Shown piece by piece: positions 9,264-61,956 of a stretch of DNA of 64,000 bases. Source of the stretch: Cenarchaeum symbiont of Oopsacas minuta (GTDB taxonomy: Archaea; Thermoproteota; Nitrososphaeria; Nitrososphaerales; Nitrosopumilaceae); the NCBI GenBank assembly GCA_029948415.1, contig JAJIZT010000002.1, positions 27,066 to 91,065 on the forward strand, written 5' to 3'. How positions within the stretch are numbered: the stretch's first letter is position 1; every line of letters starts with the position of its first letter. The translations under genes and the position numbers were made by a program. The notes under the pieces were generated by a model, which worked only from the letters and a program-made list of their open reading frames with translations, searched no databases and was not told where the DNA came from.

Positions 9264-10393
9264 GATTGATGATCCTTTTTATAATTATCATATTCTTTCA
9301 AAATTATGCGTTCAGATTCTTTCATATCTTTTTGTGATAGAGGTTCCAACAGTTCCCGTATGGCAATCTGTGCAAGATTTTCAGAATCAAGTGACTCTAA
9401 AGCCAAACGAAACATCTCCGATTCAGTGTCTGTTGGTCGCGATAAGAATACATCATGACTTGAATCTTTTTTTTGTTCTCTCCACGACGTATGAAATGTT
9501 TTTCCTTCTAATCTAGCAAGATGCGCACGTATAATTTCTGGATTTATGGTTCCACTTATACGCAGATCTACTATTGGCTTTCTTTCGTTTCTAGTATCTT
9601 TAATTACGAGTTTATCAATCTCGGTCTTTAAAGATTCTGCATTAGTGTGTATTACTATTTGTGGTCTTGTGTCTAACTGTGTCCATTTTGGTACTGCTTT
9701 ATCAGATATTATATCTACAATATAGAATCCTTTTTTTGTATTCTTTACTCCCTCACTGCCTATAACTTCGATAGAACCTGGATATGTTAGAGGACCTCCA
9801 AGAAAATTGAAATTCCATTCAGATTTTTCGTGTATATGCCCCATTGCATAATAGTTGAAATTTTTTGGTAGATCTGATGCAACAATCTCTGTTGCAAATT
9901 TGTGTGCCTCTGCAATTCCCTGATGTGCTAGCAATATGCACAAACCATCATGTTGCATAGCTAGTTTATCCAATTTTTCAAGATAATCGCGACGTTCGTC
10001 TACTTCGCCTTTGCGCATTTTGTCTATTCCGGCAATCATGACACCGTTGTAATATGCTGGCACTTTGCCAACATATGTGGCATAGTCTAGCTTGTGATAA
10101 ACGAATGGTACTGGATGTAACATTGCATGACTAATATCATGCTCACCTAGGATGAAGAATACTGGAATCTGGACATTTTGCAATCTTTTTAGTGCATGCG
10201 CCATATTCATTATTGCAGTCCCATCAGGAGTAGGAGTATGGAATATATCTCCAGCAAATATCACAAAATCAACATTTTGTTCTATTGATATGTCTATTGC
10301 TTGCTCAAATGCTTTGTAAATATCTGCAGCTCGTTTTCCAGTTCCAAATTGGGAGAATCCAAGATGTGTATCTGATATATGGGAAAACTTCAA
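9260..10393 (-). CDS. mre11: DNA repair nuclease Mre11
   Basis: The 377-residue calcineurin-like phosphoesterase is the Mn-dependent nuclease of the Mre11-Rad50 complex. Motifs seen: D8-x-H10 (SDTHLG), D49 (FAGDIFH), H85 and D86 in LGEHD, H157 (LLAHQGI), H186 and H188 (MGHIHE). Residue 84, Asn in the canonical GNHD motif and a metal ligand in studied archaeal enzymes, is Glu here. All other ligands are kept. The C-terminal third is the usual capping and Rad50-binding region. It overlaps herA and rad50 by 4 bases each. Identity is certain; the effect of the Asn-to-Glu change is unknown. Confidence 0.95.
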   Translation of the reverse strand: MKFSHISDTHLGFSQFGTGKRAADIYKAFEQAIDISIEQNVDFVIFAGDIFHTPTPDGTAIMNMAHALKRLQNVQIPVFFILGEHDISHAMLHPVPFVYHKLDYATYVGKVPAYYNGVMIAGIDKMRKGEVDERRDYLEKLDKLAMQHDGLCILLAHQGIAEAHKFATEIVASDLPKNFNYYAMGHIHEKSEWNFNFLGGPLTYPGSIEVIGSEGVKNTKKGFYIVDIISDKAVPKWTQLDTRPQIVIHTNAESLKTEIDKLVIKDTRNERKPIVDLRISGTINPEIIRAHLARLEGKTFHTSWREQKKDSSHDVFLSRPTDTESEMFRLALESLDSENLAQIAIRELLEPLSQKDMKESERIILKEYDNYKKDHQS

Positions 10394-11919
10394 TCCATCA
10401 TATCCTGCCGTATGAGATTTTGTGTTGATACACTAGATGTTTTTTCATATTCTTTTGCTATATTCCATTGTGAAACTGCGTCGTGATCGTACCCTGCTAT
10501 CTTTTCAGGGACAGCATCAATGTGAACTGCAGAAGGGAGTCTAACCCATTGACCAACAAGGAGTGCATCTCCAACGTTTAAAGATGCAAGCTGTTTGATC
10601 AACCCTTCACTTATTGATTCAGTAGATGATGCTACTTGTCCTTGATCGTCTTGTTGTACTAGACGCATTACTGCAAGCGAGCCCATTTGTCCGAGGATCA
10701 TTGGATCTATACTGCGAGGTCTTTGCGAAATAACTGCAAGTCCTATGCCAAATTTTCTACCTTCTCTTGCTATACGTGCTGCCCAATATTTTGCCCGTGT
10801 ATCCTCTCCTTTTGGAATAAATACATGTGCTTCTTCCAAGACAACCATGATTGGTAATGAAAACCTTACAGTTGAACTTTCTTTGGATCCTGAATATGCA
10901 GAACGCGTTGATTTTTTTCTATCTGCGAGGATCTCTTGTAAATAATGTGAAACTGCCACGTTTGCTTGTTTTTCTGTAAGACTTGAAACACTGATCACGT
11001 TGATACGTCCTTCACGAATTAGACTTACTGGATCTATTATACCTGGATCAAATATGTCTGAATAATTACGGCGTGCATCTTCTATCTTGTCTCGAACTCG
11101 CCTTCCAGAATGCATGTATTCCCTACGATTCTTTTCTTCTGTATTTGATATGAGATCAACTTGACCATCTAGCGCTACCCAAAAATTCCCACTTTTTCTA
11201 ACCTGTGCTGTAAATGCCATGCGTACTATACGTTGTTGTACGGTTGCATTATCCCGTATCTCTAGCACCTCTGAGAGGGATTCAGGATCAAGCAGTCTTG
11301 GGTTTATCCGTGCTTCTAATGAGTTTACACCTTGCATGCCAAGTGATGCATAATCATCATGATAATCAAATATTACAACAGTTCCATTCAATTGTCCTAT
11401 TCTTTTAGCTAAAAGCGAAACAAGATTACTTTTTCCCATTCCTGTCATTGCTAGTATTCCAAGATGTCTTGAGATGATCTTGTTGACATCAATCTTTACT
11501 ACAGTCTGCGCGTCACGAAGTAGTGACCCTACTCTGATCCACTTTTCTCCATTTGGACCAAATATTCCTTCAAGATCTTTGGATTTTGCCTCATATATGG
11601 CAGTACCAGGTTCTGGTGGAATATCTGGCAGACGTGGCTTTTCCTTTTGAAGAGTATCTAGTGTTCCAAGTAACATTATTTTTGAAGCATATCCTTTATC
11701 ACGTAAATCCATACTAGCTACTTTTGTTGCTTCTTGTGCTGAGTGGTAATCTTTTGCATCATCCATTGCAGAGCTTGAAACTTTGGAATGCTCTACTAGT
11801 CCAAGGAGTTTATCTGTACCAGATCCTATTATGACATATTTTCCTACCGCTAGTGTACTAGATGTGATTGTCATAACTGAAGATGGTGTAGATTCTCCTA
11901 CCACGTATCCGATGTTCAA
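10390..11919 (-). CDS. herA: DNA translocase/helicase HerA
   Basis: The 509-residue HerA-FtsK family ATPase forms a hexameric bipolar translocase that works with NurA in resecting DNA ends. The N-terminal HAS-barrel-like domain (residues 1-130) is followed by the RecA-like core. Walker A is ILAMTGMGKSNL near residue 155, Walker B is IMVVLEEAHVFIP near 360, and a sensor segment GLAVISQRPRSID follows. It sits between nurA and mre11 with 4-base overlaps at both ends, the classic archaeal repair operon. Confidence 0.95.
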   Translation of the reverse strand: MNIGYVVGESTPSSVMTITSSTLAVGKYVIIGSGTDKLLGLVEHSKVSSSAMDDAKDYHSAQEATKVASMDLRDKGYASKIMLLGTLDTLQKEKPRLPDIPPEPGTAIYEAKSKDLEGIFGPNGEKWIRVGSLLRDAQTVVKIDVNKIISRHLGILAMTGMGKSNLVSLLAKRIGQLNGTVVIFDYHDDYASLGMQGVNSLEARINPRLLDPESLSEVLEIRDNATVQQRIVRMAFTAQVRKSGNFWVALDGQVDLISNTEEKNRREYMHSGRRVRDKIEDARRNYSDIFDPGIIDPVSLIREGRINVISVSSLTEKQANVAVSHYLQEILADRKKSTRSAYSGSKESSTVRFSLPIMVVLEEAHVFIPKGEDTRAKYWAARIAREGRKFGIGLAVISQRPRSIDPMILGQMGSLAVMRLVQQDDQGQVASSTESISEGLIKQLASLNVGDALLVGQWVRLPSAVHIDAVPEKIAGYDHDAVSQWNIAKEYEKTSSVSTQNLIRQDMMD

Positions 11920-47601: not shown

Positions 47602-48486
47602 TTAGTTCGTTGCCAATACGTGAAGATTATGACACAAGACGAAAAAGCCCAATTCAATTCTCTGTGTATCAAGCTTGCGTGCACTCAAGGTACCAGATAG
47701 TCTTCTTTTCATAGATGAAAACGTAGATTCTACATTACTACGTTTGCGATATATTTTCAAGAATCCTTGTAAATCATCACGATGCCATCGGAGCATCCTG
47801 CCCATTGCATCAAATCCTTTTACACGAACACCTTTTTTTGGCATTATTACAGGAATATATCCACCATCTTCAATGAGTGTGCATATAGTATGTGAAAGAT
47901 ATGCTGCATCAAGTATTACATATCCTGAACCTTGTGGTATCTTTTTACACATTTGTTCAAATACAGGTACATCATGACGTCTTCCATCAGTAACCATATG
48001 TGATACAATTATCCCATTTTTTGCTCTCACAATGTGTAGTTTACGATAATCACGCCTAGAACTAAGACCATTTTTTGCATCCAACCATGTACGTTGACCG
48101 TTTATTGCAACTCCAGTAGAATCACCATACAAAGCACCTTTCATACCAGGTCTACTGATGGAATTTATCATCCATGTGATAAATTCTTCTCGAATTTTAC
48201 AAAAAGATGCATGTAATGCAGATCTTGAAGGTACTTTTTTTAAGTAGAGGGATTCTAGTAATTGTGGTGAGTCTTTTAGATAATCTACAAGCTTATCGAA
48301 TGACATCTGATTCATTGTCTTAAAGACAAGACAGGTTGCCGTTCCGATGGGGTCAAAGCCATGTTGTCCTAACGGACTTTGGGTCCATGGCTTTATCCCT
48401 TGTTTTCTTGCTTTCATAGATACTCTGATCAACATCTCTCGTGATCTATCGAATTCTCCTTTTCGTCTGTGCTTTGATAATTTCAT
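47602..48486 (-). CDS. DDE transposase of IS-1 (IS4/IS5-type)
   Basis: 294 residues, apparently intact. The three catalytic positions are visible: GALYGDSTGVAING (Asp), GSGYVILDAAYLSH (Asp) and YRKRSNVESTFSSMKRRLSG (Glu in the Y-x(2)-R-x(3)-E type motif). An N-terminal helical region comes before them (GFDPIGTATCLVFKTMNQMS). About 150 non-coding bases lie between its stop and the left end. The element's right end is now 1.3 kb away because of IS-2, though both ends remain intact. Confidence 0.85.
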   Translation of the reverse strand: MKLSKHRRKGEFDRSREMLIRVSMKARKQGIKPWTQSPLGQHGFDPIGTATCLVFKTMNQMSFDKLVDYLKDSPQLLESLYLKKVPSRSALHASFCKIREEFITWMINSISRPGMKGALYGDSTGVAINGQRTWLDAKNGLSSRRDYRKLHIVRAKNGIIVSHMVTDGRRHDVPVFEQMCKKIPQGSGYVILDAAYLSHTICTLIEDGGYIPVIMPKKGVRVKGFDAMGRMLRWHRDDLQGFLKIYRKRSNVESTFSSMKRRLSGTLSARKLDTQRIELGFFVLCHNLHVLATN

Positions 48487-48563
48487 TAAAATTGATTTGA
48501 TCTACTGATCAAAAGCTTTTTCGGTCGTATGAAGCCATGATCTAAAAGTGTTATGGCGAATTT

Positions 48564-49787
48564 TACTTAGTTGCATAACCTGCCTAAATACCATATAGAC
48601 AGAATTCAAACCTAAACAAATAGATCACACCATGATTATGGGTTATTGATGAAAATAACCCACATCAGGAATGATCCACGTTGAATACGATGGTATTGTT
48701 TACTGTACGGATTTTATCTGACATGTGTGTAATCAGGAGGTTCTGCATACATGGCTGATAGCAAATACGTCAAATGGGGCACGCATCTAACCATTCAAAA
48801 ATCCAAATCTTGGAAAAAACAAGTAAATAAAGGAAAGAATGGAAGGCGATTTGAGTATTCTGATAAACTATTTGAGAGTCTTGCAATAATCAAAACATAC
48901 ACGGGTATCTCATATAGAGCGTGTCAAGGAATTGTACAGACTGCTCTAGGTTCAAATGCTCCAGATCATACCACAATATGTCGCAGAATAAATGCACTAA
49001 AAATAAATACACCTGAAAGTCCATCTGATCAGTTAAAAGATATCTATCTTGCAATAGATGGTAGTGGCATAAAACTAAATGAGCGTGGTGAATGGATACG
49101 TGACAAATGGAAGATACGGCGTGGATTTATCAAGATACATTTTCTCATAAATGTTAAAACTCGTAAAATTGTCTCTTTTACAGTTACCACAGAGGAGAAA
49201 ACAGACAGCTCGCAATTCTCTATCTTGTTAAAGGCAGCATCCAAGATAGCTGCGAACAAATGCAATATCGTATTGTATGGAGATGGTGCGTATGATACAA
49301 ACGCCAATTTTAACCGCTGCCAAAAGCTTGGCATTAAACCTGCGATAAAGGTTCGATCAAATTCTGCACTTCATGCTGGTCGTTATGCACGTAACGATGC
49401 GGTCCGTGAGCAGCTTGGAGGAGATAAAGCATCTTGCATTTACTCCAAATGATGCAATGTTAAAAAACCAAGCAGAGTGGAAAAAACGTGTTAAATATGG
49501 TCAACGTTGGATAATTGAGGTAGTGTTTTCTGCATTTAAGAGAGTATTTGGGGATTCTGTCATGTCAAGAAAATGGGATCACATTGTGCAAGAGCTTCGA
49601 TTAAAGGTATGGGTTTACAACATGTTTTGTGATGCGGGTTTGAGTACACCTTGATGAGAAAACGCGTATCTATCTAACTATTATTCTTATTTTGTACCGT
49701 ATTGTTTATTTTCATTGTATTATTGTACTTTGGTGACACATTTTTGCTGGTATGAGTTAAGGCGATCAAAAGTTGTGCAACTAAGTA
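48564..49787. mobile_element. IS5-like insertion sequence (IS-2) nested in IS-1
   Basis: 1224 bp with 16-bp inverted ends (TACTTAGTTGCATAAC and, inverted, TACTTAGTTGCACAAC). It is flanked by the 9-bp duplication GGCGAATTT (48555-48563 and 49788-49796). Removing it with one duplicate restores IS-1 exactly. Confidence 0.88.
48751..49654 (+). pseudogene. DDE transposase of IS-2 with one +1 frame change
   Basis: The first frame runs from 48751 to about 49430, with LAIDGSGIKLNERGEW (Asp) and CNIVLYGDGAYDTNANF (Asp). The second continues from about 49432 to 49654 with HLAFTPNDAMLKNQAEWKKR and RWIIEVVFSAFKRVFGDSV (Glu). One base change near GGAGATAAAG separates them. It is either a disabling indel or a +1 programmed shift of the kind some IS families use. 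A truncated relative lies at 50853-51428. Confidence 0.8.
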
Positions 49788-49938
49788 GGCGAATTTTTGG
49801 TGCTATTCATGGACAGAGCCGAGGTAATCTGACCATCTGATCCAATATTTTTCATCATCACATTTTTGGATCAGGTGCATAATACAAAAAATCGTTCATG
49901 AATAATGAAAAGATAGAACACATTTGTCCTAACCATAT

Positions 49939-50836
49939 GTGCCCAAGAGATCAAAGAATTCAGATGGTTGTCTAAATGACAAATCCAAGTCTAAAAGAAA
50001 GACCCAAAATGCAAACAAAAACACTAGGGCTGTTAGGAGCAAGTCCATGTTCGTTGGAGTTGACGTGCACAAGGTATTTCTTCATATAGCAATGGTTGAT
50101 AACAAAGGCAAAGTAATCTTAAATGTGCGAATTGTAAACCAACACGCAGACATTAAGAAATTTTTCCAAACAAGCGTACAAAAGAATGCAAAGATCGTGA
50201 TGGAATCATCATCTGTTTGGTATGGGTTATTTCGATACATGACCGACAGATTGGATCTGGACGTCATTCTTTCAAATCCATACCAGACAAAAGCTATTGC
50301 TGCATCCACTAAAAAGACAGACAAGGTTGATGCACAAATCCTAGCAAACTTGTTGCGTGGAGGACATATCAACAAATGTTACGTGCCAAACAAAAAGATC
50401 GTTGCGCAAAGGCAGCTGATCTGATACAGGCACAAGCTGGTTCAAGCAAGAACGTCCATGATACATGGAATATTGCTCCAAAAAGGAATCAAGATTCCTG
50501 GACGTACATTTTCCTACAAATATGTAGCAAGCCTCAAGACCATAAAGGACTATAGGGTAAACGGCTTTCTTGCATCCATACACCTTTACGATCAGAAAAT
50601 AACAGATGCCAACATGCTGATCTACAAGTGCACGTACAAGCAGATATGCTGAGATACTCAAGACGATTCCTGGAATTGTCGATTTTACAGCTTTGACGAT
50701 TGCATCAGAGATTGATAGTATTGAAAGATTTTCAGATCCTGAAAAACTCAAATCATACGCAGGACTTGTTCCATCAGTCTGCAGACGTGGTACATCATGG
50801 CCACATAACATAGTAGGATGTTACGATGGGTTTTAG
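49939..50836 (+). pseudogene. IS110-type (DEDD) transposase, broken and C-terminally short
   Basis: A GTG start gives MPKRSKNSDGCLNDKSKSKR. The DEDD domain follows: FVGVDVHKVFLHIAMVD (Asp), KIVMESSSVWYGLF (Glu) and KTDKVDAQILANLLRGG (Asp pair). After about 50420 the frame is lost, and the remaining Transposase_20-like part (ILKTIPGIVDFTALTIASEI, KSYAGLVPSVCRRGT) appears in other frames until about 50836. The element end is ACCATATGTGC, as at 24445 and, inverted, 53744. Confidence 0.8.
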
Positions 50837-50852
50837 TAGAATCAATCCGCTC

Positions 50853-51428
50853 TCATGTGTTGCATGCACCAAAAAATAATATTTTATAAAAGACTTGCAA
50901 TAGTTTTGGAAATTGTGAGAGCTCTCCAGTGTGTTCATCAGTGATGGTCATTGCTATGATTTTTTTATCATCTGCGTTTACTGCCAGAGTTATTCTGATA
51001 AATCCAAGACGGATATTCCATTTTACGCGTCTCCAGTCTCCACCTTTACCACCTTTGAACCCACTGCCATCAAATGCTACGTTTATTTTTTCTACATTAC
51101 CTGTTAATGAGTTTGAAAATGTAAATACACCATCGTCTTCATTATATCCTACATTAATGACAGATATTCTTCTCCATAGTTGAACAAAACCTATAGAAAA
51201 TTCTTCCTGTATTGATTTTGCTAGCAGGCCATCCATTTGTCTGTATCCAAGACCAAATAATGATCTTAGGAATACCATCTGAAGTATCAAAGATTGTGGG
51301 CATGTGAAAGGTTTGCCATTTTTGTTTTTATTCATGTTTTTAATCTCTGCATACAATTCATCGTGGTTTGAATCTAGAACTAGCTGTTTGCCTTGATTAA
51401 TGTATTTTCTGTCTTTGATGTATGCCAA
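50853..51428 (-). pseudogene. Truncated IS5-like transposase, relative of IS-2
   Basis: 191 residues covering only the N-terminal half: FTCPQSLILQMVFLRSLFGL, VEKINVAFDGSGFKGGKGGD (first Asp) and LGFIRITLAVNADDKKIIAM. The second Asp and the Glu are missing because the frame ends against the IS110 remnant. The open frame continues a few codons above 51428, so the true start may be farther up. Confidence 0.75.
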
Positions 51429-51557
51429 TAACTGTGATGAGTTATTACTGATCTTTTTGTCTTTCGGTAGTCTAAGTATTCTAGGCGGGGTTATGAAACA
51501 AAGTCAACTATACCAAAGAATAATATACTTTATTAATAAAAAAACATCAAGTTCAAA

Positions 51558-52412
51558 ATGAACAATGTATATAAAATTAAAATTGGAATTATTCTTGTAT
51601 TTTCTGGATTTATTACTTCAATAGTTGTAGATGGATATGTTTCAGGAATCTCATATTTAGGGGAACTTCTATTTTTAATTTGGATTATGTCATTATTGAT
51701 AATATTTGTGGGTTATAAAAAAAATAATGCAGACAAAAAAGATATGAGGTCAGATATTAAACAATACGGATCACCTCTCAAAAAAGTTAACAACAATTTT
51801 TCAGATATGAAATTTATTGCAATTATGATAATTTTGGTTATATTAATGACGATCTCACTTTTTTATATGTTTAACGAAATTAAATTTCAACTTGGTTTGA
51901 CCGATGAACAAAAACTATCTAGGGAAAAATCATATCAGGCAGAAATATCAAAGAAAGCTGAACATGTCAGGCAAATAAAAAATGAACGTATTAGTTTTCC
52001 TATCACTAGTGAGGTTTACAAAATATTATCTGATGATGAACTCAAAGATAAATTAGCTAATCATTTAGCATGGTACCGTGGTACTGATAGTGTTGGAGAT
52101 GGATTAAATGATGTTATAAAGAATGTATTAAAAAGAAGTTGCGGAATATCAAATGCAGGTATGGAACGAGTGAATGGTCATATCAAGTCCTATTATACTA
52201 TTAAAATTAAAGAGATACAGGGAGTAAAATATGCAGAAATAGTGGTATTCCCAGAGTTTGAGAGGAATAATGATGAATTTCAAGAATTTAGTATTGAAAG
52301 CTTGTGTGTGGCATTAACACAGTTTACATTTATGACTAATCTAGAAACTGGCGAAATTAATCGTAAATATGGGGATAAAAACGCCAAAATAGTTTTAGAT
52401 AGATTGATGTAG
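51558..52412 (+). CDS. Two-helix membrane protein of unknown function with an embedded IS end
   Basis: 284 residues. Two transmembrane segments open it (GIILVFSGFITSIVV and LGELLFLIWIMSLLIIFVG). A cytoplasmic-type loop, KKDMRSDIKQYGSPLKK (about residues 62-78), is encoded by DNA that matches the IS66-like A/B/C left end. A third helix follows (FIAIMIILVILMTISLFYM), then a soluble domain of about 175 residues with a helical linker (EKSYQAEISKKAEHVRQIKN). No family is recognised. TTATTAATA lies about 24 bases before the ATG. Very AT-rich, like the defence genes further on. Confidence 0.6.
   Translation: MNNVYKIKIGIILVFSGFITSIVVDGYVSGISYLGELLFLIWIMSLLIIFVGYKKNNADKKDMRSDIKQYGSPLKKVNNNFSDMKFIAIMIILVILMTISLFYMFNEIKFQLGLTDEQKLSREKSYQAEISKKAEHVRQIKNERISFPITSEVYKILSDDELKDKLANHLAWYRGTDSVGDGLNDVIKNVLKRSCGISNAGMERVNGHIKSYYTIKIKEIQGVKYAEIVVFPEFERNNDEFQEFSIESLCVALTQFTFMTNLETGEINRKYGDKNAKIVLDRLM
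51742..51785 (+). repeat. IS66-like A/B/C left-end sequence inside a coding gene
   Basis: TATGAGGTCAG followed by TATTAAACAATACGGA and ACCTCT matches the first ~44 bases of copies A-C with about five differences. It is in frame with the membrane-protein gene and contains no stop. Confidence 0.75.
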
Positions 52413-52629
52413 ATAGGCATACAAATATTTCCAAAATTGTAGATTATGGTATATTTGATAGACTTTTGACCTCATTAGACCTTTATGCATATCCATGTGC
52501 TATCTTTATAAACAATTCTAGCATTTTTCGTTAATCCCGCATAGCTTTCGCTAGGTGTGTACTTTCCGTTTCTAAAGAATTATCCATACGAGGTTTACCC
52601 TCACAACCTTTCTTCATCCAATCGTTAGA

Positions 52630-53744
52630 TCATGCCGCAGTTATTAATCGGAGTTTAATCTCCAATGCATAAGACGCGGTTGCGAATCTAACTGTAATAG
52701 CTTTCAAACTTATCTTTAACATCCAGTATATGACACGTAACATCTTTGATGCAGTGGCTACTGTGGCCTTGCCCGTGCCTTTTTTTCTTGCGAGTCTTTT
52801 GTAAAACCGTGTGACATTGCTTTTTGGTGCACACCTTACATGTGTGCGGACCGCTTCACTCAAAACCCACCTCATCATTCTGCTGCCTCTTTTTGTTATA
52901 CTGCCATGCTTTACCATATCTGCAGAATTGCGTACACTTAACCAAACCTGCATACGAGTACAAACGGTGAGAATCTCCTCACATCATCAATCTCTACCAA
53001 AGCACTGTAATCACCAATTCCTGGAATTGTCTTTAGCAATTGGATCTGTTTATTAGATCTTGTAATTTGGTATATCCTTTTGTTTGTTTTTGCAATGAGT
53101 CTATCATACGAGCAGATGGTCATCAATTCTGTAATCACCTATGAAATGAAGCGATTCGTTGTACTTGAGTAAATGTTGTACCTGCAATCTTTATCCCCTC
53201 TTGTATCCATGTATGGCATTTTTTTCACTCGTTCTCATCTGTACACTCCAATGTCTATGTCGTACAAGGTGGCCTCCATTCCACTACAATTTTTGTTGGA
53301 ACATGGCACAATGCAATATATCCGCCACGGTAAAGGTCTGCAAGTATCATTGCGTCAACCTTGTCAGTTTTTTTCTTGGATGATGCAATTGCCTTTGTCT
53401 GGTATGGGTTCGAGAGAGATACATCCAGCTTTAGATCTTTTGTCATGAACATAAACAAGCCATACCAAACAGATGATGATACATTTTGCACTCTTTGGGA
53501 CATTTTTTAAGAAAAACTTTTTCACCTCATCGTTGTCTCTATCGACTCTCTCGTTAAAGACAATTTTACCTTTTTTGTCCATCATTGCAACCTGAAGAAA
53601 CTCCTTGTGGACGTCAATACCAACGTACATGTAGGATCTGTCAAAATACGGTAATGATTTTGTTTGTTTTTTAGTTTTGTAATGACCAGATCTCTTTTTG
53701 TTCTTATTCTTACAACCTTCTAAAGTCCTAGTTTTTCTGTGCAC
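52630..53744 (-). pseudogene. IS110-type transposase, second lineage, frameshifted
   Basis: It starts at 53744 (MHRKTRTLEGCKNKNKKRSG). The DEDD part has YVGIDVHKEFLQVAMMD (Asp) and, after a frame change, SSSVWYGLFMFM and KKTDKVDAMILADLYRGGY. The Transposase_20 part follows in further frames (LLKTIPGIGDYSALVEIDDV; then KHGSITKRGSRMMRWVLSEA to 52630). At least three frame breaks. It is only moderately similar to the copy at 49939, so a different IS110 species. The 217 bases from 52413 to 52629 between its end and the membrane-protein gene are probably the non-coding end of this IS. Confidence 0.8.
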
Positions 53745-53888: not shown

Positions 53889-56800
53889 TCATATTATTGG
53901 AATATGTGACGTAGATTTTTGGATTAATTTAATTTCGTCATTGGTTATATCATATAACGAATAAACTATTAGATCAACTCGATTTTTCAAATCTTGAATA
54001 CAATGCATGAGTTTCACCAATTTATTTTTCTCATTATTATAACATTCATTTAATATTATTTGTTCGTCAAAATTTATTGTCTTTTTCGATGATTTTTTGA
54101 TTTTATAAAGCAGATCCTCATAATTAATGTCGACCCATCCTTTAAATTGCACCGAATTCTTTATTTTGAAATTTTCAATTAACATTTTAATAAATTTATT
54201 ATTGATTTCATAGTATTCTTTGTATGATTTTAATATATCATCAGATATTTTTGTAATTGATTGTTGTCCCTTATTATCAATTTTGTATATGGGTATTTTT
54301 TTTAATGAACTGATAAAATATTCATATTGCTCGCCTTTTTTTCTACCAATAAAAGGATAATAAAAATTCATTAATTTAGAATTTAATATTGGTAGCAAAT
54401 ATTTTAAATCATATTGTGTATTTTTAATCAATATTGAATATACATCGCCAGCGCTACCGCAACGCATTTGATCATCATATCCAAATTTATTATATTTTGC
54501 ACGATATGGAACCAATAATTTCTCTTCAGCGTTAAACAATTTTTTAGATCTAGGTCTGTGAAATCTATACCAAGGATATTTTCCATCCCGGGCATCCGCA
54601 CGATCAAGTAATTGGTTTTTGAATTGTGACAAATATTTTAAAATATTAAAAGAGTTTTCTTCACTTGTAGAATCTGACGTATATATAATATGATTAATAT
54701 TATTATGAATATAATAATTATGAATATCTCCATTTTTTACTAGTGGTCTTACATAGTTAGATTCTAATGAATGATTATTGATCAATACATCATTTACAAT
54801 AAATGCATCGTTTATTCCACATTGTTGTACCATGCTAATGTCAGCAATATGTTCCAATCGTACGGCATTATCGGATGTATCGATTTTGTTAAATAAATTC
54901 AATAATTTTTCATTACCAAAAATCCAATGTTCACTGTTTAAATTAGATTGTAATGAAATGTTTTTGGCATTTTTGTAGAGATCATGCTTATCATGTATTT
55001 CCACATATTCAATTTTATTATTAATGTCAAATTCTTTTTTTAATGTTAATATTGCTGTATGTATACTAATATTTTTAAAAACATTTAGATTGCTCATGTC
55101 GATAATTTTTTTAATTGATGTGTTATTTAAAATGAAATGACGTAAATTTTTCGCGAATGTCGCTTCCATAAAATATCTGGATGTTATAAAACTCATCATA
55201 CCATTTCTTTTCAACAAGTTAATTCCTTGATTGTAAAAATAATACAGAACATCTGTTTTTGGAGAATAACATTCAAATTTTCTAAGTTCTTGTTTTATGA
55301 TATTTGGTAATGTGTCAATGTGTATGTACGGAGGATTTCCAATAATTGCATCAAATCCTGGATTTTTTTTACGTTTTCCATTTTGATCATAAAATATATC
55401 TGAAAATACTAATTCCCAATGGAAAAAAGAATATTTTGTTGCTGTATTATCAACTTCTTTAAATTGATTATTTTCCATATAGTAATCAATACCATTCTTG
55501 CCAACTTTTTGTATAAAATCTTTTATTGGAGGTACATTAACTCCAAATTGTTTTGCTAATTTAACATTTAAAAAAGATTTTAGATCATAATACCCTGTGC
55601 CTCTCGAACGCATATTATCATATTTTGTGATCTTTGTTTTGACAGCTGATGCGGTATCATCCTCTAAATTTTCAAGTAAGATCGAGTCTCGTATTATTTT
55701 TTTAAAACGTGTTCGACCTTCACTAGACTCTGTTAATGTCAATTGCGCTTCAAGCATATCTTCTATGTTGGAACCAATTAATGAATTACCAGATTTTAAA
55801 TGTGCACTTAAAAAAGATAAAGGTTTTTCAGAGGATAGAGTTTCAAGCCATAAAGAAACACTAGCAAGATCAACTGCGAGTGGATTTAGATCTACACCAT
55901 AAATACATTTTCTTGCAACGTCTCTCTTTCGTTCTGTCAACATCTGTTCATCAATATATTCATCATAACATTCTATTTTACAAATTCTTTTAGCAATATA
56001 ATTTACAACGCCCACTAGAAAATGGCCGGATCCCATTGCAGGATCTAATATATTTAAAGTGAGTATGTTATCGATCTGTTCACTAGGATCATTTGTCTGG
56101 TCGATTATATCATCAATTAATGGCCCTATTGTATTTTCAACAATGTAATCTACAATATATTTTGGAGTGTAATAACTACCAGTTGATCTCCTATCTCTTG
56201 TATTTGTCAGATCCACTATCTTATTCTTTTTCACATGTAGATGAAATTCCAAAAGACGTTCATAAATAGCACCAAGATGTCGAGTTTCTAGTGCAGCATA
56301 ATCCAAAAAAAAGTAATTCCCTTTTCCGTCTTTTGTTCTTGTCAATAAGCTTATTGCATTAAGGAGGTTTTTGTTTGGAATATTCCATTTTTCAAGAGTA
56401 GCATGTATTTTTCTATCAAATAATTTACCATAGTATGAACGCATGATAAATTCATTTGGATCATAATCGAGATCTTCACTACCCATCTCGATTAATCTAA
56501 ACAACTTTCGTAGTCGTTTGTTAACATCATATTCTGCAATAGTATGAGGTGGATTTAATACCCAGTTAATTTTTATCCATTTTATACTAAAATTATCATG
56601 ATAAAAATCATTATCGGGAAAAACTCCACGGTCTTCTGCATAAAGAATAAACATTATTCTATAAAGTAGAATAAATATTGGCTCTCTAATTTTTTCTATG
56701 GTCTGAGCGTTTAAAGTTAGATTATTTGTCGTATCTGAAATAATTCCCTCAGATAATGTTTTTAACGCTTCAAACATATTTCCAGTTAGTTCTCCTCCAA

Positions 56801-57302
56801 TTTGAATTGCAAAACAATCAAAAGCTTCAGAAATTTTATCCATGATTGAAGAAGCAGAAAAATTCTCAGTTATACGAACATTTTCAAGAAAATCGATGAA
56901 AGTTTTCGAAACTCCAGCATTTGGTTTGATGTCTATTGGAACATGTCGCGTTTCTGAGAATTTTTTTGAAAATTCTTTTGCGAGACTTGAAAATATCCAT
57001 TTAAATCCACTTGGATTATGAGAGCATACCATACAGAATCCATTATTATTTTTTATTATCTTGGTAGCAATACCTTTCCACTGTTTTAAAGAATCAGTAT
57101 TTGTTTGTATATAGTAGATCTGATAATCCCCTTTATTTGCGATAATTCTCGATTCATATACTAGATCTTTTTCCTCTTCACTCCAACTATCTTTATTTAC
57201 TGGTTTATCGGAGAAATCGTAATTAAGTTCTGAAAATAAATTTCTTAATGAATCTAGATCTTTTAACCGATATGCTAAATTTTCTATTTTTATATTATTC
57301 AT
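53889..57302 (-). CDS. Eco57I-type DNA adenine methyltransferase with C-terminal specificity domain
   Basis: 1137 residues. A ~365-residue N-terminal region of unclear fold (no clear PD-(D/E)xK motif) is followed by an N6-adenine gamma-type methyltransferase core. In it, STGSYYTPKYIVDYIV at about 373-388 is motif X, LDPAMGSGHF at 419-428 is AdoMet motif I, YGVDLNPLAVDLA is at about 468-480, and IIGNPPYIHID with catalytic NPPY is at 656-659. A TaqI-like target-recognition region then follows (SLESNYVRPLVKNGDIHNYY, YLLPILNSKLMNFYYPFIGR). It modifies adenine in a specific DNA site. It overlaps the upstream PLD-SNF2 gene by 8 bases, so the pair is one operon. Base composition is markedly AT-richer than in core genes. 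It could be a PglX-like or type IIG-like enzyme, but no nuclease motif is seen in it. Confidence 0.85.
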   Translation of the reverse strand: MNNIKIENLAYRLKDLDSLRNLFSELNYDFSDKPVNKDSWSEEEKDLVYESRIIANKGDYQIYYIQTNTDSLKQWKGIATKIIKNNNGFCMVCSHNPSGFKWIFSSLAKEFSKKFSETRHVPIDIKPNAGVSKTFIDFLENVRITENFSASSIMDKISEAFDCFAIQIGGELTGNMFEALKTLSEGIISDTTNNLTLNAQTIEKIREPIFILLYRIMFILYAEDRGVFPDNDFYHDNFSIKWIKINWVLNPPHTIAEYDVNKRLRKLFRLIEMGSEDLDYDPNEFIMRSYYGKLFDRKIHATLEKWNIPNKNLLNAISLLTRTKDGKGNYFFLDYAALETRHLGAIYERLLEFHLHVKKNKIVDLTNTRDRRSTGSYYTPKYIVDYIVENTIGPLIDDIIDQTNDPSEQIDNILTLNILDPAMGSGHFLVGVVNYIAKRICKIECYDEYIDEQMLTERKRDVARKCIYGVDLNPLAVDLASVSLWLETLSSEKPLSFLSAHLKSGNSLIGSNIEDMLEAQLTLTESSEGRTRFKKIIRDSILLENLEDDTASAVKTKITKYDNMRSRGTGYYDLKSFLNVKLAKQFGVNVPPIKDFIQKVGKNGIDYYMENNQFKEVDNTATKYSFFHWELVFSDIFYDQNGKRKKNPGFDAIIGNPPYIHIDTLPNIIKQELRKFECYSPKTDVLYYFYNQGINLLKRNGMMSFITSRYFMEATFAKNLRHFILNNTSIKKIIDMSNLNVFKNISIHTAILTLKKEFDINNKIEYVEIHDKHDLYKNAKNISLQSNLNSEHWIFGNEKLLNLFNKIDTSDNAVRLEHIADISMVQQCGINDAFIVNDVLINNHSLESNYVRPLVKNGDIHNYYIHNNINHIIYTSDSTSEENSFNILKYLSQFKNQLLDRADARDGKYPWYRFHRPRSKKLFNAEEKLLVPYRAKYNKFGYDDQMRCGSAGDVYSILIKNTQYDLKYLLPILNSKLMNFYYPFIGRKKGEQYEYFISSLKKIPIYKIDNKGQQSITKISDDILKSYKEYYEINNKFIKMLIENFKIKNSVQFKGWVDINYEDLLYKIKKSSKKTINFDEQIILNECYNNEKNKLVKLMHCIQDLKNRVDLIVYSLYDITNDEIKLIQKSTSHIPII

Positions 57303-60300
57303 TTTGATTTTCTACATATTTGCTATATAAAATTCTAGGTGATTTACTTTCTTCTTCATCTCGTGTTACACGATTTTGTAGATTATAGTGTATGTATAAT
57401 TGACTTAGACGTTCTAACAGCTCGGAATCCGTCATTTCACTTTTTTTGATCTTGTTCAATTCTTTATTTAATTTTCCTTTTAAAATTGAGATAGAATATG
57501 CCTTTCGTAATGTATCTATCATTATTTTTCTATCTGAAAATTTTTCCGTTTTATTCATTTTTACCAATCTTTCTATTATCCATTTTTGTGATGAATTTAA
57601 TCTAATACTAAATGTCCTAGCCTTTATCTGTTCTACATCTTCAATAAATTTACTCCAACCAATGGATAACAATTTATCATAATTTGAAGGCAATGAATGA
57701 ATTATTTTATCATTTGATTCTAAAATTTCTAATGCACTTTGTATTCTGATCTCTTTAATCTCTTTACATGCGTTGATTAAATAATATTTTTTTATTTTAT
57801 TACTTTGATTAGTTCCACTTTCACACGCCAAAAGCAATTGCCCATCCGATTTTATATTGTTCGAGCTACGAATTCCATTAGGAATCGTCTTAAATTCTTT
57901 CCAAAACTTAGGATCATTTACTTGAATATCTCTTAGAATTTTCTCAAATTTGGAGGGCTCCAAAGGGTTTTTTCCTTCTCTATCTAGTATTGAATCATCA
58001 CCTTTGTAAATTGCATAAAGATCTTTTGTGTTGATCTGTTCATTTGGCTTGAGTATCTTATAATCTTCACCAATTATCTGTTGTATATTATTGATTTTGC
58101 TATCGACATAATCCTCAAGTTTAAAATCTGCTTTCATTTCTTGAGCTAATAAAAAATTATGTACCATGATATTTTCATTTTCACTTCCAATTCTGTCAAT
58201 TCTTCCTGCTCTTTGAATCAATCGGGTTGGATTCCAATGAAAGTCATAATTGATTATAATTTCTCCTGCTTGAAGATTTACACCTTCTGACAAGACATCT
58301 GTAGTGATCAATAAAGAAATTTGCTCGGATTTTTTAGTTTTTGTCTTACTGCCTGGATTATTGTCCGGATCAAATCTTCTCGCATACTCTATAGAATTCT
58401 TAGAAGAATCAATTTGTTCTTTAATCCCATTCCAATGTAGATAATCATTCAAGTATTTAGTCGTAGTGGCAAATTCTGAAAATACGATGATTTTCTTTCC
58501 AGAATATTCATTTTCAAGTAAATTTTGCAATTTGTGTAACTTGTCATCTGTTTTCCATGTTAGTCGATGAATTAATCCATCAATCGTTTCAAATATTTCA
58601 ATATCATTTTGTATATCTAATGTTAATTTTTTAATGTCAAATGCCTCAAATTTATATTTTGTTTCTCCTGCTGCATGAATTTTTTCTTTAAATTTTTCAA
58701 TTGTTTCAGGATCATTTATAGAGTCAGAGTCAGATTGTGCAATGTTATACATTTCCTTATAAGATACATCGCCGATAGGAATAATTCCTTTATCTAATAA
58801 TGTTTGAAAAATTTTGTGTGTGTTAATATAGTGTTTAATACTTTGTTTGAATGCTTCAATACTACTCTCCATTCTTTTTAACAACAAAGTTCTGATCAAT
58901 CCCATAAGTTTTGTGCCGGCAGCTCCTAGTTCTTTATATAATTCCATATCCTTATATTCATCTTTCACATACGAACCTAAACTATATCTTGCAAGTGTGA
59001 GATTTTTAGTGTTGTTATTAGATGAAGGTTTGGCAAGATAATCTACAATAGTTTGGTATTTTCTTTGATATACCTTATTAATATCATATTTTTCTGTTTT
59101 CATTTCACGTGTAGGAAAATATTTATTTTCATTACCAACTCGTAAATATTTTCTACCGTTTTTATCATTTATTCCATATTGTTTCAGAACATATCGTCTA
59201 GTACGTCTGACCATGATATTTCTTAACAAGTCAACTAAACTAACATTACCATTTTCAACTTGTCTAAAATATTTATCAAGATCAGTTTCGTTTGCAGGTG
59301 GAATAAATGTTTTTGGAGTTTGATGAAATAACATTATTTGATTTTTAATATCTAAAGCGCTATTAGAATATGGTGTTGCAGTTAGTAATATAGCTTTTGC
59401 ATCTTGTGCCTGCATAAATTGATGTATATTTTCGTATCGTCTAGAATCATTGTTTCTAAAATGATGACTCTCATCAATTAATACCAAATCCCTACTTTTA
59501 TATCTGTAATCTTGATACAATTCAAAATTATCTTGAGATAACACACCTTGTGATAAAATTTTTACATCAACTTCATATTCTTCACATATTTCTTCCCACA
59601 TGGGAATTAGCAATGGTGGGCAAATGATCAAAGGTCGATATCCATGCAGTTGTAAATATTTTAACAATGTTGTGCCAACATATGTTTTACCTAACCCAAC
59701 AACATCTCCAATTATCACGCCGCCATATGATTCAAACATTGTAAGTCCTTTATCAAATGCGTCTCTTTGAAATTTAAATAATTTTGGAAATTTTAATTCC
59801 CAGACCGGATCAATTTTGTGTTGCTCTTCTAATTTTCCTTTATATTCTAAATATATTGCTTTTAAAAACAAATCTCTAGGAGAATATACTTTTCCAGCCC
59901 ATGATTTTGTTAGTATTAAATTAAAATCTTCAGTAAACAACAACCCTTCTTCCCATAATTCATTAAACCAGGTCAATAATTGATTTACGTCAGGAGAATT
60001 ATACGTTTTGAGATTTAATTCACTATTGTGAGAAATTCCTGCAATAGACAAATTACTAGAACCTACAATTCCCATACCTTGCGTGAAATCTGTATTTTTT
60101 GGTTGAAAAATATAAGCTTTAGCATGAAGTTTTTCTTTTGGGTACACTCTGACTTCTAGTTGTTTAGTTTTCATCATTTCAATAAGCAACTCTACAACAG
60201 TTTTATCTTCAATAGATTGATTCATGTATTCTAAAGATTCTGTTATATTAGTTTTAGAATCTGAAATCACTTTGATTTTTCTATCCCTGTTTACAAAATT

Positions 60301-60561
60301 GGTTTCATTAATCTTACTGTGTACTTCTTTGATGTTATGAAATCCTTCAATTAGAGCTTCGGTGGTAGCTTTGTCAGTAGTATTAGAAATTAATAAACGA
60401 ATTTTATCTACGTCTTTTAATGATGAAATTATCACTGAAAGTCCAGAAATAAAGAAATAGCCTACGGCAATACTAGCATTTCCAGTTTTCGGTAAAATTT
60501 TTAATAATTCATCTCTCAAAATTACATTTCTGTTATCAATCACATTATCTGCTTGAATCAT
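57295..60561 (-). CDS. PLD-nuclease/SNF2-helicase fusion protein
   Basis: 1088 residues. A PLD-type domain (1-215) has H146-x-K148 (EKLHAKAYIF), S169-N170 (VGSSNLSIAG) and E181 (NSELNL), the H-K-S-N-E set found in single-HKD nucleases such as Nuc and BfiI. It is followed by a SNF2/SF2 translocase: Walker A GDVVGLGKTYVG (285-296), motif II LIDESHHF (361-368), motif III TATPYSN (394-400), then IIVFSEFATTTKYLNDYL, LSEGVNLQAGEIII and motif VI QRAGRIDRIGSENEN. A helical C-terminal region of ~250 residues ends it. It probably translocates on DNA and may cut unmodified DNA with the PLD domain. The start ATG is only 10 bases from IS66-like copy C, so its promoter may lie within or have been supplied by that element. 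Confidence 0.85.
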   Translation of the reverse strand: MIQADNVIDNRNVILRDELLKILPKTGNASIAVGYFFISGLSVIISSLKDVDKIRLLISNTTDKATTEALIEGFHNIKEVHSKINETNFVNRDRKIKVISDSKTNITESLEYMNQSIEDKTVVELLIEMMKTKQLEVRVYPKEKLHAKAYIFQPKNTDFTQGMGIVGSSNLSIAGISHNSELNLKTYNSPDVNQLLTWFNELWEEGLLFTEDFNLILTKSWAGKVYSPRDLFLKAIYLEYKGKLEEQHKIDPVWELKFPKLFKFQRDAFDKGLTMFESYGGVIIGDVVGLGKTYVGTTLLKYLQLHGYRPLIICPPLLIPMWEEICEEYEVDVKILSQGVLSQDNFELYQDYRYKSRDLVLIDESHHFRNNDSRRYENIHQFMQAQDAKAILLTATPYSNSALDIKNQIMLFHQTPKTFIPPANETDLDKYFRQVENGNVSLVDLLRNIMVRRTRRYVLKQYGINDKNGRKYLRVGNENKYFPTREMKTEKYDINKVYQRKYQTIVDYLAKPSSNNNTKNLTLARYSLGSYVKDEYKDMELYKELGAAGTKLMGLIRTLLLKRMESSIEAFKQSIKHYINTHKIFQTLLDKGIIPIGDVSYKEMYNIAQSDSDSINDPETIEKFKEKIHAAGETKYKFEAFDIKKLTLDIQNDIEIFETIDGLIHRLTWKTDDKLHKLQNLLENEYSGKKIIVFSEFATTTKYLNDYLHWNGIKEQIDSSKNSIEYARRFDPDNNPGSKTKTKKSEQISLLITTDVLSEGVNLQAGEIIINYDFHWNPTRLIQRAGRIDRIGSENENIMVHNFLLAQEMKADFKLEDYVDSKINNIQQIIGEDYKILKPNEQINTKDLYAIYKGDDSILDREGKNPLEPSKFEKILRDIQVNDPKFWKEFKTIPNGIRSSNNIKSDGQLLLACESGTNQSNKIKKYYLINACKEIKEIRIQSALEILESNDKIIHSLPSNYDKLLSIGWSKFIEDVEQIKARTFSIRLNSSQKWIIERLVKMNKTEKFSDRKIMIDTLRKAYSISILKGKLNKELNKIKKSEMTDSELLERLSQLYIHYNLQNRVTRDEEESKSPRILYSKYVENQNE

Positions 60562-60571
60562 GATATAATTG

Positions 60572-61956
60572 GTATGAGGTCAGCTATTAAACAATACGGA
60601 GCACCTCTTCAAAGATGTTCTTACCGTGCGCTTTCCATGTCAAAATGCACGTTAGAAAGTTTGACATTCTTTTCATAGATCCTGATCTGACCACTTATCT
60701 TACGGCGAACCACGACATCCCTCAATGCATGCTCGGCAGCATTGTTTGTAGGCGGAATGTTTTCATGTTCAATAAATGCAAACAGAGCTTCAGTTGAATT
60801 CTCAAACCGTTTTACAAGACTCTGATATTTCAAAACTACGATATCCATCCAACATGCGATCAAATGCGTATTCAAATTCATGCCTGGCTCTTGCATCACA
60901 ATTGGCATTGTTTTTGGCATTCTCAAACAGCATGCACATCTTTTCGTAGAGTTTCCTGTATGCACCGCCGTGTCTTATCTCCATGTGTTTAACTGTACGC
61001 AGCTCGTGAGCCCAGCATCGTTGGCGCATTCCTCCAGGATCAAATCTCTTGTAAACTGGATATCCATCAGTTACTGCAACACCATTAAATTTATCCATAT
61101 ATGCGTCCATGACATATGCACCGCGACTCTTGTTTGCGATTATTGCAATGTTTTTCTCGTATGTGATGACCCATGTCCAAATTAACAATCCGTTTGATGT
61201 CTCATCAATATTAACAAACGGCGACTGTACAACCGTGTTTGTTATTGTTTTTGCATCTTTTTCCATTAGATCTGAGACATTTGAAATTATAGTGGATGTT
61301 GCAACAACCAAACCGCATACTGTTTTGACCAGATTGGTTATTTCATTATATGGAATTCTTGCCGCCCTGTATTGGACAACCAGAGCAAGTACATTCTTGC
61401 CATATGATCCTGATTTTGGTAGATCATTTTCTGCTTCACAGGTACGTTTGCAGTCTGCATACGCTGATTTGATGTCTAATCTCTTCTGCAACTGCTGGTT
61501 ATAATATCACGCGTCTTTGTGTACGAATATTTCATGATGCCGCCACAACTGCATTTGGTATTTTTCATTGTATGATTAACGGTACTGGAAGGATTGTGTT
61601 TGCATGATGTTCCTTTGTGGCCTAGACTGCCGCCTGATTTTTTTGATGAAGGTAATTCACCGTTTTCTCTTGCCTTGCGTTTTTCACGTTTTTCTTTCAG
61701 ATATTCAAGGGATCGTGTAGAGAGTTGGGGTTTTTGTAATACGCAAATTTATTCTGGAGAAATATGATTTCCTTATTCTGTGCATCCGCCTGATGTGTCA
61801 ATTTTGCTGTCTTTTCTGTAAAAACTCTCACGCATTCTTCCAATTCACTGTATGTCGGACGTCTATCCCTCATGAAATGGATTGGTTATTGATATACTTG
61901 GATCGATATGATCGTGTATTATTGACTAATTTGTTAGTCATGAGCTGACCTCATAC
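60572..61956. mobile_element. IS66-like insertion sequence, copy C
   Basis: 1385 bp with perfect 14-bp ends (GTATGAGGTCAGCT / AGCTGACCTCATAC). It is the most diverged and least damaged of the three copies. The outside flanks TG and CA are inverted complements. It ends 10 bases upstream of the PLD-SNF2 start codon. Confidence 0.88.
60587..61873 (-). pseudogene. IS66-like transposase, copy C (frameshifted)
   Basis: The N-terminus near 61873 reads MRDRRPTYSELEECVRVFTE. A 229-residue central frame (61491-60802) keeps what A and B lost: VNIDETSNG, GVAVTDGYPVYKRFDPGGMR and QRCWAHELRTVKHMEIR. The C-terminus is in another frame (60965-60621) with NNAAEHALRDVVVRRKISGQ. At least two frame changes remain, so it is probably inactive, but it is the best template for the family consensus. 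Confidence 0.82.

Follow-up and report, generated by a model that had tools for sequence, protein, structure and literature searches.

In Type I restriction-modification (R-M) systems (HsdR, HsdM and HsdS), specificity can be swapped while the motor-nuclease subunit is conserved, HsdS being a separate protein. Class 1 DISARM systems (DrmD, DrmMI and DrmC) possess an SNF2 motor, an adenine methyltransferase (MTase) and a phospholipase D (PLD) protein, together with DrmA and DrmB with DUF1998. Type ISP enzymes are single polypeptides with an Mrr nuclease; passages of PMC3874165 and PMC7049714 (both PubMed Central, PMC) describe for LlaGI and LlaBIII a nuclease, a superfamily 2 (SF2) motor, a gamma-type N6-MTase and a recognition domain in one system. 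The ATP-dependent Type IV enzyme SauUSI combines a PLD nuclease at its N-terminus with an SF2 motor; in the relevant passages of PMC7913695 it reads methylated DNA through its own SRA domain, dimerises via its nuclease domains and translocates by ATP hydrolysis. The R-M systems CglI and NgoAVII also contain a PLD nuclease and an SF2 ATPase, with the PLD domain fused to a B3 reader and the ATPase separate (same passages of PMC7913695). BREX-related Type-2 (Hma) systems combine an HKD-SNF2 effector with an N6-MTase and, according to part of PMC12839542, are built round DUF499, nearly always with DUF3780. Here we compare these systems with a pair of genes, encoding a PLD-SNF2 protein and an Eco57I-type MTase, in a 64,000-nucleotide stretch of the archaeal Cenarchaeum symbiont of Oopsacas minuta (G000:C2:27066-91065; hereafter the window). 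The host genome (G000) comprises 1.63 Mb on 11 contigs and is 96% complete. The host is an ammonia-oxidising archaeon (Nitrosopumilaceae), as a gene for archaeal AmoA (amoA) is present.

The pair is a variant of ATP-dependent R-M and not without precedent, its nearest counterparts being BREX-related Type-2, SauUSI, Type ISP and class 1 DISARM. It differs from Type ISP in being split into two polypeptides, with a PLD nuclease, an SNF2-type motor and a TaqI_C recognition domain. Unlike SauUSI, it has an MTase partner and no SRA-type Pfam domain; unlike CglI and NgoAVII, its PLD domain is fused to the motor, which also sets it apart from class 1 DISARM. In contrast to Type I systems, its specificity would lie inside the MTase, one relative described below (G399) being an exception. 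We found no description of this exact two-gene unit in open-access PMC text. We think it likely that the pair is a complete two-gene, Type I/ISP-like ATP-dependent R-M system with a SauUSI-like nuclease. The intact domains and catalytic residues, the conserved pairing, the lack of a fixed third subunit and the variation of the MTase recognition region in relatives were all computed directly. New here is the evolutionary pattern, a conserved PLD-SNF2 protein accompanied by an MTase with a divergent recognition region.

Domains of the two proteins

Both reading frames are intact, open and complete on the minus strand, spanning positions 53889-60561 of the window. The upstream gene (57295..60561) encodes a PLD-nuclease/SNF2-translocase protein of 1088 residues, the putative restriction subunit; the second (53889..57302) encodes an Eco57I-type N6-adenine MTase of 1137 residues with its own recognition domain. 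The frames share 8 bp (57295..57302), the overlap already noted in an earlier reading of the sequence alone (the sequence-only reading). That reading had also proposed a PLD domain joined to a complete SNF2 motor, and an adenine-MTase core with a target-recognition region; the domain searches and motifs described next bear out both proposals.

In Pfam, the PLD-SNF2 protein exceeds the curated cut-offs of PLDc_2, SNF2-rel_dom and Helicase_C. Its N-terminal PLD nuclease region (residues 1-216; 59914..60561, minus strand) contains the set His146, Lys148, Asn170 and Glu181, which does not vary among the 23 sequences aligned (the window's and 22 others). BfiI likewise uses an H-K-N-E set. The SNF2 motor (residues ~260-840; 58042..59784, minus strand) is defined by Pfam, by the motifs GDVVGLGKT, DESH, TATP and QRAGRIDRIG, and by profile matches to RapA and SNF2 remodellers. 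For the PLD profile, the top solved structure is 7clg (E 5.7e-13), followed by the phospholipase 7e0m (E 4.5e-4); the weaker matches to R.NgoVII (4rct, 0.047) and BfiI (2c1l, 0.074) are not significant alone. The entry 7clg is SauUSI, as stated in part of PMC7913695. Pfam searches of the PLD-SNF2 protein found no SRA-like reader (E 0.001) and no Mrr nuclease domain, PLDc_2 standing in the latter's place.

The MTase matches Pfam Eco57I, N6_Mtase and TaqI_C, again above the curated cut-offs. Three parts can be distinguished, all on the minus strand: an N-terminal domain (residues 1-165; 56808..57302), which we propose to be a docking domain, as it recurs on an MTase that differs in its other parts and adjoins a related PLD-SNF2 gene; the methyltransferase core (residues ~340-770; 54993..56285) with the motifs DPAMGSGHF and NPPY, also supported by Pfam and profile matches; and a target-recognition region (residues ~780-1030; 54213..54965, with TaqI_C at 858-1005), the equivalent of which is hypervariable in relatives. 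The MTase profile matches the solved structures 7lni/8cxz, BseCI and BrxX; we take 7lni to be CamA, and 8c45 to be PglX. The catalytic motifs of the pair are unbroken and conserved. None of the 24 MTases in our alignment A4 (the window's and 23 others) contains ISP_coupler or Type_ISP_C.

Conserved pairing across genomes

An 11-member alignment of PLD-SNF2 proteins was searched against named bacterial and archaeal genomes, yielding at least 587 relatives, the best 80 of which were used. Nearby MTases were called with profile A2 (E 1e-5) within the flanks taken around each PLD-SNF2 gene. An MTase of the window's kind is present in 71 of the 80 loci and lies on the same strand in 71 of 71, by which a chance neighbourhood of the two genes was rejected. 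It is directly downstream (gap <300 bp) in 41 loci, further downstream in 15, directly upstream in four and further upstream in 11. Clustering of 875 neighbouring proteins from the 80 loci recovered the MTase family in 69; the next commonest families are DprA-like (10 of 80 loci) and Schlafen/AlbA_2 (6 of 80), each named from one member, and this clustering revealed no fixed third gene. The pair is therefore a conserved unit that is widespread in bacteria and archaea, and not rare. The sequence-only reading had suspected that similar pairs might exist in databases and had asked whether the two genes co-occur across genomes; both are answered by the 71 of 80 loci, and the homologues do not come with constant extra subunits.

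The pairing extends to the host's own phylum, in which an MTase or its remnant accompanies 18 of 22 archaeal loci examined (L035, on a 4.5-kb contig, is not included); of the four loci without one, three lie on contigs of 3.4-5.4 kb and the fourth is L277. Six plasmid loci were opened by choice from the 80 plasmid matches listed. Five of the six contain a PLD-SNF2 gene, and all five of these have an MTase in the same stretch, 4.2 kb away in Thermococcus. Relatives on viral contigs supply three rows of alignment A3. In one locus (L036, 10720-11835) an extra PLDc_2 gene sits between the PLD-SNF2 and MTase genes.

Several observations weigh against a strict two-gene unit. Gene order and spacing vary, as the 15 further-downstream and 11 further-upstream MTases attest. 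Three of the 71 MTase matches score <40 bits (L050, L058, L119), and one MTase is 6.4 kb distant (L059). No MTase was detected in nine of the 80 loci, four of which have ≤147 bp of contig beyond the gene; L094 has none although its flanks are 5.4 and 9.3 kb long, and the archaeal L277 has none in 14.8 kb. On a Halolamina plasmid (L041, 7392-14517), a window-related MTase adjoins an SNF2 protein without a detected PLD domain. Thus, MTase and nuclease are not strictly tied, and partners can be exchanged. The N-terminus of the Halolamina SNF2 protein resembles a PD-(D/E)XK region by eye.

Do the two genes merely travel together, an ordinary MTase next to an unrelated helicase-nuclease acting in repair or in a Type IV-like manner? 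The exchanged partners and the few loci without an MTase would fit such co-transfer, as would the PLD domain being nearest to that of a Type IV enzyme, SauUSI. Against it stand the uniform strand of the 71 MTases and the 41 directly downstream positions, and no SRA-like reader was found in the PLD-SNF2 protein. The two proteins have also diverged together: among 56 complete pairs (55 loci and the window), the identities of the PLD-SNF2 proteins correlate with those of the MTase cores with r = 0.70, a value reached by none of 2000 permutations. We consider co-transfer alone to be improbable.

Specificity and partner exchange

The probable seat of specificity was sought by comparing the two proteins between relatives. 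We compared loci with PLD-SNF2 proteins at least 65% identical, comprising 38 locus pairs from 22 loci; the window and the truncated loci L068, L071, L087 and L107 were dropped (a first version including truncated loci had 42 pairs). The PLD-SNF2 proteins in this set are 65-90% identical. In the least conserved 200-residue segment, the median identity is 0.56 for PLD-SNF2 vs 0.23 for the MTase. Within the MTase, identity is 0.62 before NPPY and 0.25 at 60-300 residues after it. The MTase minimum is below the PLD-SNF2 minimum in 38 of 38 pairs, and is located 0-350 residues after NPPY in 36. As the locus pairs share loci, we also counted non-overlapping pairs, eight of nine of which show the drop in the recognition region. 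The clearest example is L110/L120, with PLD-SNF2 proteins 90% identical, MTase N-termini 79% identical and recognition regions only 27% identical.

A nuclease that itself read a sequence could scarcely remain 90% identical when the methylation that protects against it changes, and the simplest reading of PLD-SNF2 conservation is that this protein takes its specificity from the MTase. The MTase would then probably carry the specificity of the system and PLD-SNF2 be a generic restriction subunit. Three points count against this reading. Recognition domains vary in any MTase, such that swapping is evidence of a shared specificity subunit only when the PLD-SNF2 protein is conserved as well. One of the nine non-overlapping pairs, L060/L070, has a conserved recognition region. 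And the swap data come from relatives that are ~25-35% identical to the window's PLD-SNF2 protein, whose close relatives are too few or too broken. A Type I-like exchange of specificity with a conserved restriction subunit is thus seen in the relatives (eight of nine non-overlapping pairs) and not in the window's own pair.

We propose the following mechanism. The MTase would combine the roles of modification and specificity subunit: a short asymmetric motif would be read by its C-terminal recognition domain, and an adenine within that motif be methylated by its core. The PLD-SNF2 protein, without sequence specificity of its own, would dock on the MTase, perhaps via the N-terminal domain of the latter, and become activated when the MTase meets an unmethylated site. 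It may then translocate along the DNA, and a dimeric PLD active site would cleave at a remote position. In this manner the cell's own DNA would be marked by the MTase, and unmarked invading DNA be cut by PLD-SNF2. For the pair, we infer complex formation, translocation, cleavage and defence from sequence comparison. That modification, specificity, motor and a possible nuclease are supplied by two polypeptides, as the sequence-only reading suggested, is supported by the pairing in 71 of 80 loci, the lack of a fixed third gene and the MTase-centred variation in relatives.

An abortive system would present a different picture: the nuclease would kill or halt the infected cell, and the MTase be only an antidote or sensor. 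A related HKD-SF2 system (Pbe/CxC) is indeed discussed in part of PMC10853773 as possibly acting on self DNA. However, recognition regions that are swapped while the nuclease hardly changes are typical of sequence-specific restriction, and an abortive role is the least probable of the alternatives that we weighed.

Within the host's family, G399 (L272) offers a natural case of partner exchange, as judged by sequence comparison. There, a PLD-SNF2 gene with 43% identity to that of the window precedes an ISP_coupler MTase of 638 residues, after which comes a separate Type_ISP_C specificity gene of 407 residues, a Type ISP-like trait not found in the window MTase. The first ~145 residues of the G399 MTase are related to the N-terminus of the window MTase (23% identity; E 2e-7 when compared singly and E 8e-7 from a genome search). 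This N-terminal domain occurs in four of 250 genomes of the host's family (G000, G028, G441 and G399) and adjoins a PLD-SNF2 gene or its remnant in all four. In G028, an intact PLD-SNF2 gene (56% identical) lies beside an MTase that ends after ~165 residues; the remainder of this MTase was not found in the 84%-complete genome, except for one weak match (E 4.5e-5) on another contig. An intact PLD-SNF2 gene beside a cut MTase would be expected if the restriction subunit were harmless without its partner. Directly upstream of the G028 PLD-SNF2 gene is a large gene that by eye is DUF262/GmrSD-like (L031, 1563-3383). In G441 (L309, 2615-4715), a degraded PLD-SNF2 gene is found beside a kept MTase N-terminal domain (40% identical), which now runs into another frame.

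We propose from the archaeal set that the N-terminal domain docks the MTase on the motor. A hidden Markov model of this domain (three seeds) did not reach the bacterial MTases and gave three matches, all beside PLD-SNF2 genes, with only two control MTases; an alignment of N-terminal MTase regions has no invariant column. More tentatively, the pair might belong to an undescribed, widespread class of ATP-dependent R-M, in which a generic PLD-SNF2 subunit obtains its specificity from an exchangeable MTase, and MTases of different lineages (TaqI_C, Type ISP) are recruited via a conserved N-terminal docking domain; we hold this to be somewhat less than an even chance. If true, a two-protein plug-in form would be added to the types of ATP-dependent restriction, and methylation and cleavage should both be redirected by altering a single domain in one of the proteins. 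The pair is intermediate between Type I, Type ISP, SauUSI and BREX-related HKD-SNF2 systems. Swaps of the recognition region make the claim of shared specificity directly testable.

Described systems and genomic setting

Profile searches, as proposed in the sequence-only reading, did not place the pair squarely in any described system. The PADLOC model C3a139 'HKD+Snf2' matches 30 of 30 members, with PLD_Helicase, DrmD, HmaA and others matching more weakly. C3a139 is the best-fitting label, though it names a protein and not a pair. The NCBIfam model NF042964 (phospholipase D-like anti-phage protein) gives 135.5 bits, vs a cut-off of 1100, and 120-168 bits for six PLD-SNF2 relatives; the MTase is far below the cut-off of the NCBIfam PglX models. 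In the host genome, there are no matches to DUF499 or PglZ (brxA/B/C were not searched by profile). One MZB/DUF1998 match and one HsdS gene (C1:350681-351742) are present on a contig other than that of the pair, so that the sequence-only reading was right to see no DUF1998 helicase or HsdS partner nearby.

The pair could in principle be a reduced BREX-related Type-2 (Hma-like) system, in which an HKD-SNF2 effector and an N6-MTase remained after loss of the DUF499 ATPase and DUF3780. Part of PMC12839542 describes this combination of four components, and HmaA is among the PADLOC matches. We sampled 20 DUF499 loci from the matches listed for 40 of 200 genomes of the phylum. Three of these 20 (L298, L300 and L302) carry a PLDc_2-SNF2 protein, like the BREX-related Type-2 systems of PMC12839542; the three were tested with Pfam and have weak PLDc_2 scores of 27.5, 23.4 and 22.6 bits (cut-off 27). 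Profile A5 did not match the DUF499-linked SNF2 proteins. An SNF2 protein is present in 16 of the 20 loci and scores 122-201 bits on the pair-type profile, vs 410-1181 bits for 20 unsplit archaeal PLD-SNF2 genes including the window's. A tree built from 120 SNF2 regions has one split, with support of 0.996, that sets the 16 DUF499-linked proteins (L298, L300 and L302 among them) and L041 apart from all 103 pair-type proteins; the PLD-less L041 was assigned to the DUF499 side of this test by choice. The MTase profile matches only one of the 20 DUF499 loci (L291, 119 bits), and the MTase of L298 is of the DUF1156/N6_N4 type and not Eco57I. Furthermore, no DUF499-sized neighbour recurs in the 80 loci of pair-type genes. 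Given that the host genome lacks DUF499 and PglZ matches and that the DUF499-linked SNF2 proteins split off, assignments to BREX and to Hma/BREX-related systems fail, and a reduced Hma-like system is highly improbable. Each of the three PLDc_2-containing DUF499 loci (L298, 4461-14632; L300, 4049-14260; L302, 4131-15116) also has a gene of MTase size and two small genes; among the small genes of these loci, two match DUF7680 weakly.

A minimal DISARM, consisting of DrmMI and a DrmC-DrmD fusion without DrmA and DrmB, is very unlikely. In PADLOC the MTase matches DrmMI best (E 3.2e-67, partial) and DrmD profiles match the motor, but the DrmD model reaches 129.7 bits vs a cut-off of 610. DrmA and DrmB with DUF1998 are not in the pair's locus, the sole MZB/DUF1998 match of the host being on another contig, and no family the size of a large helicase or DUF1998 protein recurs near the 80 loci (as judged from clustering rather than from a DrmA/B profile). 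According to part of PMC9142583, phage without methylation sites can be restricted by DISARM, which is a misfit with the swapping of recognition regions.

The sequence-only reading described the pair as AT-rich and bracketed by insertion sequences (IS), and both descriptions hold. GC content is 28.5% in the pair and 37.4% in the remaining window, the minimum among 237 other 6.7-kb segments (all to the left of the pair) being 34.8%. IS66-type transposase remnants in two frames (60621..61491, minus strand) lie 59 bp upstream of the pair, and IS110-type remnants (52630..53744, minus strand) 144 bp downstream. Several different transposase genes and fragments are clustered at 47602-53744, adjoining the pair.

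The host genome contains a second, diverged MTase/PLD/SNF2 locus (L037, 4095-11433, in G000:C1; locus position 1 corresponds to contig base 438000). By eye it sits among ribosomal-protein genes, with PLD and SNF2 encoded by separate, overlapping frames. A relative, G006, has a diverged locus of the same type (L038, 8103-14624), with MTase and motor broken into several frames. In both loci the PLD-SNF2 reading frame is broken within one and the same linker, yet the direction of the shift differs between the two; a programmed frameshift was rejected on these grounds, independent breakage being likelier. The host also has its own single-polypeptide Type ISP enzyme (Mrr, helicase, coupler, MTase and Type_ISP_C), which is cut by the contig end (L212, 2-4402, at the start of G000:C4). 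Together, the Type ISP gene, the HsdS gene and the two PLD-SNF2 loci make for layered restriction in this small ammonia-oxidiser genome.

Elsewhere in the window, the segment 24000-27000 has a GC content of 48-49%, vs 36% for the window, with no open frame >200 residues and no Rfam match. Rad50-like (SMC_N), calcineurin-like phosphoesterase and HerA-like genes follow one another at 7170-11919.

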